From assembly GCF_937859865.1 (NCBI RefSeq), contig NZ_CALMAT010000023.1, positions 1 to 36,772 on the forward strand: 36,772 nt of DNA, written 5' to 3'. Positions 30,953-35,258 of the stretch are shown here, in pieces. Source of the stretch: an uncultured Mucilaginibacter sp. (GTDB lineage Bacteria; Bacteroidota; Bacteroidia; Sphingobacteriales; Sphingobacteriaceae). The first letter of the stretch is position 1. Each line of letters opens with the position of its first letter. The translations under genes and the position numbers were made by a program. Below the pieces are notes generated by a model. The model had not been told where the DNA came from. It did no database searches and saw only the letters and a list, made by a program, of their open reading frames with translations.

Positions 30953-32743
30953 ATGAAAAGAGAAATTCTACACTCATCCAAATGGTTCTTTGCTTTTTTT
31001 ACACTATTGGTTTTATTTATAAGCTGTCGTAAAAACGAAGTAGCTGACCCTGGCAAAGAATTAAGCAGGGAAGAACTGCAAAAAACCTTTTTTAACACCT
31101 CTACAACGAATGATGCAGAAATTAAAAAGCTTGCAGAAAACATTCAAAAGCAACAATTATTCTTAAAATCATTGCCCGAATTTATCCGCAAAAACGGTAT
31201 TCCTAAATGGGACAAAGTTTTATATAAAACGAAAGGTGAAAGCGGTGGACAACAACCTGTAAAAACTTCTTCAACTTCATTAAAGACAAATACAGTTAGC
31301 AATAATGGAGCTAACCAGGGCGTATTTTTTATTCCATTGCAAGACGAAAATTCAAAACAAATCAAGTCCTATATAACGGCTTATAAGCACAATGACAGCC
31401 TTTATACTTACAGGCTCTATAACAAAGATTCTCTAAATGCTATTCGCCCAGGTTCTAACATAACAAAAAGCAACTTGCTAAATACACAAGCAGTATTTGG
31501 CTATTTTGAGAAAACAATCAATAATACAGATAGTGTTAATGTATTGTCTCCCACAAAAGCCACCCTAAAAAATGTAAAAATTAATTTTGATACTCCTACA
31601 AATACCAATTCAGTAACTGGTGCAGGTGTTAAACCGATGTCTGGTGATGGGTGTTTAGTTGCAATGTCTGTTAGTATAGAATATACACTAATTATCTGGT
31701 CTGACGGTAGTTATTCTGAATCTGTCTCCGTTACCATGATAATAGCTTTTGACTGCTCCGGTGGAGGTGGCGGCGGAAGCGGTGGTTTTGGTGATGGTTC
31801 AACAACTTATCAATCCCCAGATAGTGGAACTTATTGGTGGAGTTATGGTACGGGATGGCCTTATAATACAGGCGGTGGTGGATACATTAACAATGACCCA
31901 AACTATAATCATGCAGGTGGCGGTGGTAATTTTGACCCTAACTGGTATTGGTGGTGGAACAATAACCCGGGACAAACCCTTTTACAAAATTTCGCTAATA
32001 CACTTTCGTCAACAGAATTTAATTTTTGGAATGATCCGTCAAACTTTGTAATCGTTAATACTCTTACAGACAGGCTTAATCAAGAAAATTATTCAGCAGA
32101 AGTGCAAGATTTTGTGAAATGGGCAATAGATTACCTAATTGCTAATCCTTCCGTTACGAATGATGTATTCATCAATGAATTTTTAACCCCTTCTGAAGGT
32201 ACAGATGGGCCATATGGTTTTAATCAAAGTTACTGGGACGATCCCAACTTAGTCATCCCAACTCAAACATTGCCATCTTACCAGGATTTTTATAACAATT
32301 TTCCTAATGTCGATGCAGATGCTGTATATAATTTAATAGGAGGGCCAATATTGGCTCATCATCAATCTGACCCAGTTAACTATTCTAATGCTTGTGCATT
32401 AAGAGTAAGCCGCGCATTAAATTATGCCGGTAAAACGATACCAGCCGTTAATGGAACTGAACAAGGAGCTGACGGGAAGAATTATTTTTTGAGCGCAAAA
32501 GCATTAAACGCATATTTAAGGAAAGCTTTCGGCCCTCCCACAGATCATTTTACACAAACACAAGGTGGAAGAAACGGTGAAAACTTCCCTAATTTAATTG
32601 CTGGTAAAAAAGGTATTTATTCTATGATTGCGTCTGGGTGGGTAGCATCGGGTCATGCTGATTTATTTACTGGCACAATCTGTAAACGTGGATGTGACAT
32701 CACAAAATTTACGACAACAATTGATATTTGGGAACTACAATAA
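30953..32743 (+). CDS. lipoprotein with C-terminal Tae4-like peptidoglycan amidase toxin domain
   Basis: A 596-residue protein. Residues 1-25 are an SPII signal with lipobox FISC (acylated Cys25). About 26-95 is charged helix; 100-265 is a beta-rich region (FFIPLQDENSKQIKSYITAY onward); 265-345 is a Gly/Trp/Asn-rich spacer with GGGGGGSGG and YWWWNNN. The C-terminal 140 residues match type VI amidase effector 4: NACALRVSRALNYAG with candidate nucleophile Cys481, GADGKNYFLSAKALNAYL, GKKGIYSMIASGWVASGHADLFTGT with His568, then CKRGCD (Asp582 or Asp570 as possible third residue). Tae4 enzymes cut the D-Glu-mDAP peptide bond. The next gene looks like its immunity partner. No VgrG, Hcp or other T6SS gene is present, so surface or outer-membrane delivery is inferred. 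Confidence 0.85.
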   Translation: MKREILHSSKWFFAFFTLLVLFISCRKNEVADPGKELSREELQKTFFNTSTTNDAEIKKLAENIQKQQLFLKSLPEFIRKNGIPKWDKVLYKTKGESGGQQPVKTSSTSLKTNTVSNNGANQGVFFIPLQDENSKQIKSYITAYKHNDSLYTYRLYNKDSLNAIRPGSNITKSNLLNTQAVFGYFEKTINNTDSVNVLSPTKATLKNVKINFDTPTNTNSVTGAGVKPMSGDGCLVAMSVSIEYTLIIWSDGSYSESVSVTMIIAFDCSGGGGGGSGGFGDGSTTYQSPDSGTYWWSYGTGWPYNTGGGGYINNDPNYNHAGGGGNFDPNWYWWWNNNPGQTLLQNFANTLSSTEFNFWNDPSNFVIVNTLTDRLNQENYSAEVQDFVKWAIDYLIANPSVTNDVFINEFLTPSEGTDGPYGFNQSYWDDPNLVIPTQTLPSYQDFYNNFPNVDADAVYNLIGGPILAHHQSDPVNYSNACALRVSRALNYAGKTIPAVNGTEQGADGKNYFLSAKALNAYLRKAFGPPTDHFTQTQGGRNGENFPNLIAGKKGIYSMIASGWVASGHADLFTGTICKRGCDITKFTTTIDIWELQ

Positions 32744-32752
32744 CCGGATCAT

Positions 32753-33193
32753 ATGAAAAACCTTGCTTTTATTCTGGTAATTTGCTTTTTAAGTGATTGT
32801 AGCACTCATCACGCGCTATCGGTTAAAAATCCAGATACTACCGATTCTCAATTTAACAAATTAACGGAAAGGCAATTTTCGGAAACTTTCAAAATGGATG
32901 TATATCTTATTGGTTTGCAATATTCTTTTAATAATTCACCTGAGATTAGAAAGGTATTACAGGAAGACAAAAGCGGCGGCAGTTTTATTGATTTTGTTGA
33001 CCCTCAAGATGCCGTTAACGTTGCAAAAATTATAGTTGAAAGAATCAAATTGGATTCAGCCAGCAATATCAGACAAGCACCTTCGGATTTGCGAGGGAAA
33101 GCCGTTTTTGCAACTTGTTTGGAATTTTATAATAGTAAAGAATTAGATTCTATTACGAAAAAGTTATATAAGAAGAAATACAAAAATCGATAG
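32753..33193 (+). CDS. exported Tai4-like amidase immunity protein
   Basis: A 146-residue protein with an N-terminal export signal (hydrophobic 4-13). Cys16 in LSDC could be a lipobox, but Asp at -1 is unusual, so it may be periplasmic rather than acylated. The region KMDVYLIGLQYSFNNSPEIRK is helical, and AVFATCLEFYNSKELDSITKKLY near the C-terminus resembles the conserved CLDLYNSKEL block of the Tai4 immunity family. It starts 9 bp after the toxin gene on the same strand, as effector-immunity pairs do, and would protect the cell envelope from the amidase. The family assignment rests on that motif, the export signal and the position. Confidence 0.75.
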   Translation: MKNLAFILVICFLSDCSTHHALSVKNPDTTDSQFNKLTERQFSETFKMDVYLIGLQYSFNNSPEIRKVLQEDKSGGSFIDFVDPQDAVNVAKIIVERIKLDSASNIRQAPSDLRGKAVFATCLEFYNSKELDSITKKLYKKKYKNR

Positions 33194-33320: not shown

Positions 33321-33351
33321 CTTGCTTAGTGTATTTTTTACACTATATTTG
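33321..33351 (+). promoter_or_regulatory. strong Bacteroidetes-type promoter with operator-like palindrome in the spacer
   Basis: CTTG (33321-33324), exactly 19 bp, TATATTTG (33344-33351) match TTTG-N19-TAnnTTTG. The spacer is almost filled by TAGTGTA (33327-33333) and its inverted copy TACACTA (33339-33345) around five T, a likely binding site for a dimeric regulator. Confidence 0.65.
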
Positions 33352-33356
33352 TGCTC

Positions 33357-33420
33357 TTCATATTTAGGTTTATAATTGGTTAAAAGGATCTCATTCTCCC
33401 CGTTTGAGGTCCTTTTTTAT
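33357..33420 (+). ncRNA. candidate ~60-nt small RNA or terminated leader
   Basis: The unit lies between the promoter box ending at 33351 and an intrinsic terminator, AAAAGGATCTCA (33382-33393) pairing with TGAGGTCCTTTT (33405-33416). The hairpin loop contains C-rich TCTCCCC. No start codon with a meaningful frame is present. It could be an independent sRNA or an attenuator for the oxidoreductase operon 165 bp downstream. Confidence 0.5.
33382..33420 (+). terminator. intrinsic terminator of the candidate small RNA
   Basis: Twelve-base arms with one G-U pair and a TTTTTT tract at 33413-33418. Confidence 0.75.
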
Positions 33421-33486
33421 TTACCGGTTTTCAGGCAAAAAATGCCATTGATTGTATGAATTTTCATCAGCCTAAATTTTTAAATG

Positions 33487-33517
33487 CCTAAAAAAATAGC
33501 GATAAAAGAAGCATCTG
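33487..33517 (-). repeat. dispersed short palindrome upstream of the oxidoreductase operon
   Basis: CCTAAAAAAATAGC and GATAAAAGAAGCATCTG halves, 69 bp before the annotated start codon. Confidence 0.7.
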
Positions 33518-33585: not shown

Positions 33586-34251
33586 TTGCTGAAAAAGAAA
33601 CAAGCGGTGGAAAAAGAAGAAGCAAACAAATCCGGAAACGAAAGCTCGGGTTTAACGGGAAGCGGCGCAAGCAGGCGCAGTTTTTTATCAAAAATAGCCG
33701 TAGCAGGTGCCGGGTTATCGTTGGCGCCGCTGATTACTTCGGCAGCAGAGCAGGAAGCAGAAAGGGCGGCCATTGCACCGGTGGAAGTGAATGGCGTAAC
33801 GCTAATGATCAATGGAAAAAGCCAAACCTTGAATTTAGACACGAGGACAACTTTATTAGATGCTTTACGCGAAAACCTGATGCTAACTGGAACAAAAAAA
33901 GGTTGCGACCATGGCCAATGCGGTTCTTGCACGGTTTTAATGAACGGCAACCGGATTAACTCTTGCTTAGTATTGGCCGGGATGTGCCATGATGCACAAA
34001 TTACCACGATAGAAGGTTTGGCCAACGGCGAAAAACTGCACCAGATGCAGGAAGCTTTTATCAAACATGATGCTTACCAGTGCGGTTACTGCACACCGGG
34101 ACAGATTTGTTCGGCCGTAGGTTTGGTAAAAGAAGGCCACGCCAAAACCGATGCCGAGATCCGGGAATCCATGAGTGGGAACATTTGCCGTTGTGGCGCT
34201 TACCAGAACATTTTAAGTGCCATAAAAGAAGTACAACAACAAACTGCCTAA
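33586..34251 (+). CDS. Tat-exported [2Fe-2S] subunit of xanthine-oxidase-family oxidoreductase (PaoA-like)
   Basis: A 221-residue iron-sulfur subunit. A twin-arginine signal SRRSFLSKIAVAGAGLSLAPL starts at residue 29, so the folded complex is exported. The ferredoxin-type cluster is held by CDHGQCGSC plus a fourth Cys (NSC), and the second cluster by CGYCTPGQICS and CRCG. It passes electrons from the molybdenum site toward FAD. No ATG exists in frame between the upstream stop (33526) and the Tat motif; TTG 33586 is the most plausible start, CTG is also possible. First gene of a three-gene operon. Confidence 0.9.
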   Translation: MLKKKQAVEKEEANKSGNESSGLTGSGASRRSFLSKIAVAGAGLSLAPLITSAAEQEAERAAIAPVEVNGVTLMINGKSQTLNLDTRTTLLDALRENLMLTGTKKGCDHGQCGSCTVLMNGNRINSCLVLAGMCHDAQITTIEGLANGEKLHQMQEAFIKHDAYQCGYCTPGQICSAVGLVKEGHAKTDAEIRESMSGNICRCGAYQNILSAIKEVQQQTA

Positions 34252-34274: not shown

Positions 34275-35258
34275 ATGGAACCATTTAAATTAGTCCGGGC
34301 GCAAAACAACGCAACCGCCATTGCTGCTGCTACCTCCAAAGACACCAAGTTTATCGCCGGCGGCACCAACATCATTGATTTGATGAAGCTGTATATCGAA
34401 ACGCCAAAACAATTGGTAGATATTACCGGCTTAAACCTCAACCAAATTGAAACACAAGCTGACGGCAGCATCAAAATAGGCGCGCTGGTAAAAAACACTA
34501 CCGTTGCTTATCATCCCGCCATTACTAAACAATTTCCGATGTTGTCGGAAGCGATACTTTCCGGCGCAACAGCGCAATTGCGCAACATGGCCTCGGTTGG
34601 CGGAAACCTGCTGCAAAGGCCGCGCTGCTATTACTTCTACGATACCGCTTTTCCCTGCAATAAACGTGAACCGGGAACAGGCTGCTCTGCCATTCCGGGC
34701 TATAACCGAAACCATGCAGTTTTAGGGACAACAGAAAATTGCATCGCCACGCATCCTTCTGATATGTGCGTACCGATGGCCGCTTTAGGCGCGACCATCC
34801 AGGTTCAAACGGCAAAAGGCGTTCGCAGTATTCCTTTTAATGATTTTTATATCATCCCCGGTAAAACGCCGCAGTACGAAACCATTTTAAGGCCGGGAGA
34901 ATTGATTACCTCGGTTACTTTACCAAATTTACCTTTTGCCGCTAAATCGCATTATTTAAAAGTTCGTGATCGGGCTTCTTACGAATTTGCACTCACTTCT
35001 GCGGCCGTCGCTTTGGATATTGCTAACGGAAAGATCAACAATTCGCGCATTGCTTTAGGCGGCGTGGCTACCAAACCGTGGCGGTCATTGGCGGCAGAAA
35101 AAGTACTGAACGGCGCATCTGCAAACGCCCAAACATTTAAGGCAGCAGCCGATGCCGCCATGGCCGATGCAAAACCACATAAATATAACGCTTTTAAAAT
35201 TGAGCTGGCAAAACGCACGATCGTACGTGCTTTGGAAACAGTGGGAGGAATGGTATGA
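34275..35258 (+). CDS. FAD-binding subunit of the oxidoreductase (PaoB-like)
   Basis: A 327-residue FAD subunit. FIAGGTNIIDLMKLY and ATAQLRNMASVGGNLLQRPRC are the FAD-binding blocks. Five cysteines in RPRCYYF (Cys118), FPCNKREPGTGC (128, 137), ENC (156) and DMC (165) match the PaoB-type insertion that carries an additional [4Fe-4S] cluster, a feature absent from ordinary xanthine dehydrogenases. No signal peptide; it would be exported with the Tat subunit. Starts 23 bp after the first gene; its stop overlaps the next start by four bases (ATGA). Confidence 0.93.
   Translation: MEPFKLVRAQNNATAIAAATSKDTKFIAGGTNIIDLMKLYIETPKQLVDITGLNLNQIETQADGSIKIGALVKNTTVAYHPAITKQFPMLSEAILSGATAQLRNMASVGGNLLQRPRCYYFYDTAFPCNKREPGTGCSAIPGYNRNHAVLGTTENCIATHPSDMCVPMAALGATIQVQTAKGVRSIPFNDFYIIPGKTPQYETILRPGELITSVTLPNLPFAAKSHYLKVRDRASYEFALTSAAVALDIANGKINNSRIALGGVATKPWRSLAAEKVLNGASANAQTFKAAADAAMADAKPHKYNAFKIELAKRTIVRALETVGGMV

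Follow-up and report, generated by a model that had tools for sequence, protein, structure and literature searches.

The unit at 33321-33420 is predicted to be the gene for a trans-acting small RNA (sRNA) of about 62 nt, one of four copies in this Mucilaginibacter genome and a member of a paralogous family found in much of the Sphingobacteriaceae. The favored explanation, which we consider likely, combines this sRNA with a glycolysis-linked repressor of the NrtR/AraR type and with a block on the translation of SusC-type glycan importers. It builds on the observed conservation, structure and copy number of the gene, on an operator that is shared with other promoters and on an enriched complementarity to SusC translation starts. 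The original prediction for this part of the window (the whole stretch of 36,772 nucleotides that was analysed) had described the promoter, the palindrome and the terminator; the multi-copy nature of the unit, the pairing partner of its 5' arm and the regulator that owns the palindrome had been missed.

The architecture proposed there is present in the sequence (Table 1): a near-consensus promoter (CTTG-N19-TATATTTG), a 7-bp inverted repeat in its spacer and an intrinsic terminator with a C-rich loop. The Bacteroidota promoter consensus is TTTG/TAnnTTTG. The arms of the palindrome are TAGTGTA (33327-33333) and TACACTA (33339-33345), and the right arm runs two bases into the -7 element. Folding predicts an RNA with an unstructured 5' half, in which the 5' arm is mostly unpaired, and a hairpin at the 3' side; the fold of 66 nt has an energy of -15.7 kcal/mol (z = -2.65), and 3 of 200 shuffles are equally good. 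The expectation of a unit of about 60 nt without a coding frame was borne out as to ATG frames, none of which was found in the list of open reading frames of at least 20 aa, where the only frame at the unit is a 27-aa TTG frame that extends beyond the terminator. Automatic scans do not make the unit conspicuous: there are 6 promoter-like sites against 6.9 expected, in a scan of the sigma70 type that is ill-suited to this phylum, and the terminator is absent from a scan limited to loops of 8 nt, its own loop (33394-33404, including TCTCCCC at 33395-33401) having 11 nt. Since these scans do not single out the unit, its significance rests on comparison. Rfam has no match to the unit at gathering level, the sole such match in the window being a tRNA-Phe; the weak matches near the unit (algC, OrzO-P, Ref55, DapZ, ncr1015 and others) were all below their gathering scores and were discarded.

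Table 1 Features of the unit, its neighbours and its paralogues in the same genome
Feature	Position	Strand	Details
Bacteroidota-type promoter	33321..33351	+	CTTG 33321-33324, 19-nt spacer, TATATTTG 33344-33351; from the sequence
Putative operator palindrome TAGTGTA-TTTTT-TACACTA	33327..33345	.	core AGTGTA-N5-TACACT 33328-33344
Predicted sRNA transcript, ~62 nt	33357..33418	+	5' end predicted by the -7 element, 3' end by the terminator
Conserved single-stranded 5' arm AGGTTTATAATTGGTTA	33366..33382	+	proposed seed against SusC translation starts
Intrinsic terminator	33382..33419	+	stem 33382-33393/33405-33416, loop TTCTCCCCGTT, T tract
Neighbour outside the unit: xanthine dehydrogenase/PaoA-like molybdenum hydroxylase, 2Fe-2S subunit	33586..34251	+	
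Neighbour: FAD subunit of the molybdenum hydroxylase	34275-35258		
Neighbour: putative molybdenum subunit of the molybdenum hydroxylase	from 35255		
Other three sRNA copies in the window's genome	C92, C121, C173 (L032, L033, L036)		found with covariance model R1

The unit had been read as either a regulated sRNA or an attenuator in front of a molybdenum oxidoreductase operon. The downstream subunit genes are real and lie on the same strand, the terminator stands about 170 nt before the Fe-S gene, and one congener has the same neighbour, an Fe-S oxidoreductase gene directly after the copy (L002); in Mucilaginibacter arboris (L124) the Fe-S gene is about 1.6 kb downstream, with another gene between. 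Nevertheless, among the 78 family copies that have 1.2 kb of flank on both sides, 55 are followed by a gene of opposite orientation and only 23 by one of their own orientation, so that the homologues do not consistently have a co-oriented gene next to them that they could regulate. Moreover, the neighbours vary among genera, and the fold showed no competing anti-terminator pairing. The idea that the unit attenuates transcription of the molybdenum-hydroxylase operon, or forms its leader, was thus rejected on the strength of the opposite-strand genes and appears very improbable, whereas the sRNA half of the earlier alternative is favored by conservation, covariation and the shared operator.

Two other features of the window are recorded here. 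Positions 30953-32743 encode a secreted-looking protein of 596 aa with a C-terminal Tae4-like amidase domain (PF14113), followed at 32753-33193 by a small lipoprotein-like open reading frame without family match; together they are perhaps an effector/immunity pair. The sequence ATGCTTCTTTTA occurs 15 times in the window (including 33503-33514, minus strand) and 213 times in 437 kb of the window's genome, with no occurrence in 280 kb of the genome G051, and is seemingly a dense, lineage-specific, short intergenic repeat.

The distribution of the unit was studied in several ways. A DNA search of 100 related genomes retrieved conserved copies, which the original prediction had proposed to look for: the closest are 97% and 90% identical in two congeners, and homologues in other genera reach E-values down to 2.5e-23, often with several per genome. 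The tally of this search at E <= 10 (99/100 genomes) is uninformative and only the strong matches were used. An exact-pattern scan of GTDB genomes gave at least 119 stretches; the 80 matches listed are nearly all from Sphingobacteriaceae, with the genera Sphingobacterium, Parapedobacter, Pedobacter, Mucilaginibacter, Albibacterium and others. A covariance model made from 34 copies (R1) matches 48 of 61 genomes of the Sphingobacteriaceae and none of 39 genomes of other families. This search, run with strict filters that weak copies may escape and including a few single matches near the E-value limit of 0.01, finds 1-20 copies per genome and four in the genome of the window, whose own copy (33355-33428) scores 79.8 bits (E = 6.5e-12). 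The DNA homologue search is free of the arm and loop pattern bias that affects the exact-pattern copies, and so is the R1 search, although R1 was itself made from pattern-chosen copies.

The stem covaries, a point that the original prediction had suggested checking: compensatory changes occur in 8 of the 10 pairs and every letter-bearing cell is paired, a combination that none of 500 shuffles reaches, the compensatory cells number 44 against 10.0 in the shuffles, and shifting the stem partner abolishes the signal. The 5' arm has 16 invariant columns, but the invariance of arm and loop is partly built in, because these copies were picked by an exact arm/loop pattern. Most of the pattern-chosen copies correspond to a long form that starts with UCAUAAUUUAGGUUUAUAAUUGGUUA, whose promoter layout, in the listed copies compared, is that of the window copy; the remaining ones begin near GGUUUAU. 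The suspicion that the unit is a mobile or repeated DNA element with a functionless transcript arises from the many copies per genome, yet these have only the promoter, the arm and the terminator fold in common, their stems covary, their flanks differ and the promoter varies independently of the arm, all of which makes such an element extremely improbable.

A tRNA-like element (TGTAGG.TGGTGAAATT..GGCAGACACACCTCCTTGTC..., with a long variable arm) was observed directly 5' of some copies (G000:C121 (L033), L024, L030, L097 and L105). Its core is present in 35 of the 61 family genomes and in none of the 39 others, in some cases as tandem arrays. ARAGORN found no tRNA in the elements beside class B copies (L024, L030, L033), and Rfam names that of L024 a tRNA at 35 bits. 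The sRNA may in these cases be cut from a tRNA-like precursor.

The 5' arm, GGUUUAUAAUUGGUUA, is complementary to the translation starts of SusC-type glycan importers, and its complement, UAACCAAUUAUAAACCUAAAUUAUGA, resembles a Bacteroidota leader plus its AUG. Loci were available for 30 of 56 listed SusC matches. In the window's genome, 21 of the 23 above-cut-off SusC matches were studied (two lack the N-terminus, and 7 weaker loci were excluded) over the region from -70 to +21. The octamer AACCAATT is found at 6 of these 21 starts against 2 of 291 other genes (Fisher 1.1e-6), and AACCAATTA at 5 of 21 against 0 of 291 (Fisher 8.5e-7). In G051, compared with this genome's own background genes, AACCAATT occurs at 7 of 30 SusC starts and at none of 182 others, and CCAATT at 13 of 30 against 4 of 182 (p = 1e-9). 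When all 8-mers are ranked, AACCAATT comes first in the pooled data (13/51 vs 2/291) and in the window's genome, and ties with CAAATGTA for the first place in G051 alone. The predicted duplex energies are also lower for SusC starts, modestly so in the window's genome (p = 0.014) and strongly in G051 (p = 6e-12); in the former, none of 200 dinucleotide-shuffled arms matches the mean SusC energy and one of 200 matches the difference. The first ATG of a frame served as its start codon, a choice that brings noise into the analysis, and since SusC genes are paralogous, common leaders could be inherited. AACCAATT is missing from 15 of the 21 SusC starts of the window's genome, and a few non-SusC genes also have strong predicted sites for the arm. 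The strongest predicted pairing of all (-23.2 kcal/mol) is with the start region ACCAAAAACCTAAATATG of a gene named by eye as glycosyltransferase-like in L310 (G000:C118:40001-60000).

A different use of the same RNA has to be weighed at this point. The sRNA could be real and act mainly through its C-rich loop, on G-rich mRNA or on a protein, with a protein, for example an RRM protein, as the partner of the 5' arm and SusC not being the main target. The loop CATTCTCCCCGTTTG is indeed nearly invariant in class A copies while the stem letters change, a contrast biased by the search pattern, and the genome encodes one RRM_1 protein (E = 8.5e-22). Yet the other copies of the window's genome have quite different loops, two with TGCCCATCA in place of the C-rich loop and one with GGGCTCCCCGCCC, and keep the arm unchanged. 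Since the loops differ among the copies of one genome, the 5' arm is the constant element and the stem and loop are not; together with the enrichment of the arm complement at SusC starts, this makes action through the loop quite unlikely.

The palindrome in the promoter is a putative operator of the NrtR/AraR type. It agrees with the consensus AGTGTA-N5-TACACT at 12 of 12 positions, and the pattern with one mismatch allowed occurs at six places in the window's genome, against three for a reversed control: in the unit, before the pyruvate kinase gene, between pfkA and a Nudix-type regulator gene, before the C92 sRNA copy, and at two intragenic places. Earlier readings of the palindrome as NrdR-like or MerR-like, made by eye, were dropped once the site turned up before pfkA and pyk. 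In four other genomes the pattern gives 28, 12, 7 and 15 hits against 8, 8, 5 and 4 for the control; since 12 of 49 one-mismatch sites fetched from relatives are intragenic (for G051, 20 of its 28 sites were fetched, the omitted ones lying mostly at sRNA copies), single sites prove little. The recurrence of the site in homologous promoters was scored. The 130 sRNA promoters were reduced to 114 by removing near-duplicates. The long-form promoters reach at least 11/12 in 54 of 95 cases (32 perfect) against 0.16% of 1900 shuffles, and at least 10/12 in 56 of 95 against 0.84%; in 55 of these 56 the operator starts at -39/-40 relative to the arm, and in the remaining one at -38. Conversely, 41 of the 95 stay below 11/12, and just 1 of 19 promoters other than the long form reaches 11/12, so that some copies must have an input other than the operator. 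Operator-like sites accompany two of the four copies of the window's genome, in one case in another layout. This second layout, AGTGT-TATCTTT-ACAC(T/C), is centred on an apparent -7 element about 70-80 nt before the arm (G000:C92:5181-5197; also L078, L095, L127 and L131).

The same site recurs at glycolysis genes. Of the 61 genomes searched, 30 contributed regulator and pyk loci. For the AraR-like regulator, which is divergent to pfkA, the upstream region reaches at least 11/12 in 21 of 30 loci (0/600 shuffles) and at least 10/12 in 24 (1.3% of shuffles), 9 loci scoring below 11/12. Upstream of pyk, the corresponding counts are 19 of 24 (0/720 shuffles) and 23 of 24 (0.8%), 6 of the 30 loci, including that of the window's own genome, being unscorable through a missing start motif or a short flank. 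Among 2279 background tiles, 11/12 is reached by only two, one being the regulator's own site and the other that of the C92 copy. In relatives, operator sites also precede Pfam-confirmed genes for phosphofructokinase, pyruvate kinase, enolase (G017, G004), class II aldolase (G017) and PEP carboxykinase (G004), as well as genes for NADH-dehydrogenase-like flavoproteins (G051, G017), BadF-type kinases (G051, G017) and AraJ-like transporters (G051, G018). The site occupies the -33/-7 spacer, where a repressor would sit, in the promoters of the sRNAs, of pfkA and of some pyk genes.

The regulator next to pfkA (G000:C130:9004-9696) is the candidate owner of this operator. It is found in 58 of the 61 family genomes by tblastn, paralogues counted. 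The regulator (L059:1577-2272) matches PF21906 (101.7 bits), PF19368 (57.7) and PF00293 (42.7), and thus has the NUDIX domain and the NrtR winged helix of the NrtR family above the Pfam cut-off, with NrtR_WHD and AraR_C both above it. Its nearest solved structure is BtAraR (E = 4e-55), five of whose six DNA-contact residues (K179, R180, N181, K184 and R205, in a chain with a numbering offset of 3) are identical in the pfkA-linked protein, K204 being replaced by Y. The DNA sequences bound by BtAraR, as given in the sections of PMC4666351 drawn on here, agree with the present consensus at 11/12 (EMSA DNA) and 10/12 (crystal DNA) positions, and the window site, with 12/12, is an AGTGT(A)-N5-(T)ACACT site of the same kind. 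BtAraR is described in those sections as letting go of the DNA in the presence of its sugar; the ligand of the pfkA-linked regulator is probably a sugar or a glycolytic intermediate. Alternatively, the family could be real and pair with SusC starts while the palindrome belongs to another regulator, either an NrtR-family paralogue or an unrelated dimeric repressor, with an input other than glycolysis. Such paralogues do coexist in these genomes (4 tblastn matches in that of the window), and BtAraR itself binds very similar DNA (PMC4666351, same sections). Nevertheless, most of the scored loci of the pfkA-linked regulator and of pyk have the site upstream, as do eno, fba and pckA of relatives, and the two other NrtR-like genes of the window's genome have no site of at least 10/12 nearby: none within 8.5 kb of an AraR-like gene in an operon that by eye is araA/araB-like, and none within 6.5 kb of the third. 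Ownership by another regulator is thus unlikely. The genome G023 has sRNA copies and no regulator match at E <= 0.001, and the palindrome is absent from its copy L023.

Several known systems can be compared with the one favored here. The FopS sRNAs of Bacteroides thetaiotaomicron form, according to the passages of PMC11697453 used here, a set of 14 paralogues that prevent the translation of SusC and bind the protein RbpB; they respond to bile salts and have canonical sigma-ABfr promoters. Like FopS (RF04319), the window unit is short, belongs to a multi-copy paralogous group (4 in this genome, as many as 20 in relatives) and has a Bacteroidota promoter, a 3' terminator and a single-stranded 5' seed, similarly worded (AGGUU-A/U-A), whose complementarity to SusC translation starts is enriched in silico. 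The window copy, however, reaches 19.3 bits where Rfam's gathering score is 56 (E = 0.26-1.4 according to the stretch searched), and by that standard it falls outside the FopS family. In the window's genome RF04319 gives no hit up to E = 0.1, and a single one of 100 relatives, from outside the window's family, has a match above its cut-off; FopS is not among the matches at E <= 5 in a cmscan of five homologue loci, and R1 matches a 3-kb FopS locus weakly (16.2 bits, E = 0.04), at the sRNA itself. The FopS-like promoters of one genome, moreover, score at most 8/12 for the operator. By analogy, the unit probably works like FopS. FopS-like sequence was also noticed in phage records (MT836368, PQ571285 and others), 3 of the 14 matching records covering at least 80% of a 42-base query. 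GibS of B. thetaiotaomicron likewise acts on the translation starts of carbohydrate genes, as is proposed for the window unit, but in the same passages of PMC11697453 it is a single gene with two seeds and the non-canonical promoter motif PM2. As for the regulator, BtAraR and BtXylR share with it the Nudix and winged-helix repressor architecture, an AGTGT-N7-ACACT-like operator and the DNA-contact residues, but control arabinose or xylose genes in what was consulted of PMC4666351 and PMC3878776, whereas here the linkage is to pfkA and the sites lie at glycolysis genes and sRNAs.

The proposed circuit may be described as follows. A Nudix winged-helix repressor of the NrtR/AraR type, encoded divergently to pfkA, would occupy the operator in the spacer of the sRNA promoter and the same operator upstream of pyk, as well as those upstream of eno, fba and pckA in relatives. 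In the presence of its ligand, glycolysis genes and sRNA would be derepressed together, and the sRNA would use its 5' arm to pair with SusC-type importer mRNAs around their translation start (AACCAATTA ahead of the AUG) and block initiation. Glycan uptake would thereby be switched off while a simple sugar is at hand, a sugar-preference circuit whose transcription, repressor binding, ligand, sign of regulation and translational block we infer from the comparison of genomes. Spot 42 and SgrS of enteric bacteria are sRNAs that respond to sugar status and repress uptake or catabolic mRNAs; they are single-copy, Hfq-dependent and under other regulators. Their likeness to the present system is limited to sugar-responsive repression, and no sequence relation is claimed. 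Since 36 of the 95 long-form promoters score below 9/12 and are without a trace of the operator, the family seems to put one seed under several promoters.

In the Bacteroidota outside the gut genera, the choice between simple sugars and glycans has hardly been studied at the RNA level, and the papers found on it concern Bacteroides and Flavobacterium. No literature was found on this sRNA family, on the pfkA-linked NrtR regulator of the Sphingobacteriaceae or on an NrtR glycolysis regulon, in a search that covered a minority of subscription papers and preprints. As the seed, the operator and the candidate regulator can all be named, the circuit is directly testable. In its widest form, to which we would give about even chances, a Nudix-type sugar repressor would unite glycolysis (pfkA, pyk, eno, fba, pckA) with a large family of sRNA copies that, with one common seed under different promoters, serve as parallel inputs to silence SusC-type importers, and this would constitute an RNA-based carbon catabolite repression of the Sphingobacteriaceae, independent of Hfq-type circuits. 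If true, SusC-silencing multi-copy sRNAs would extend well beyond the Bacteroidaceae, and this would be the first link between them and central carbon metabolism.
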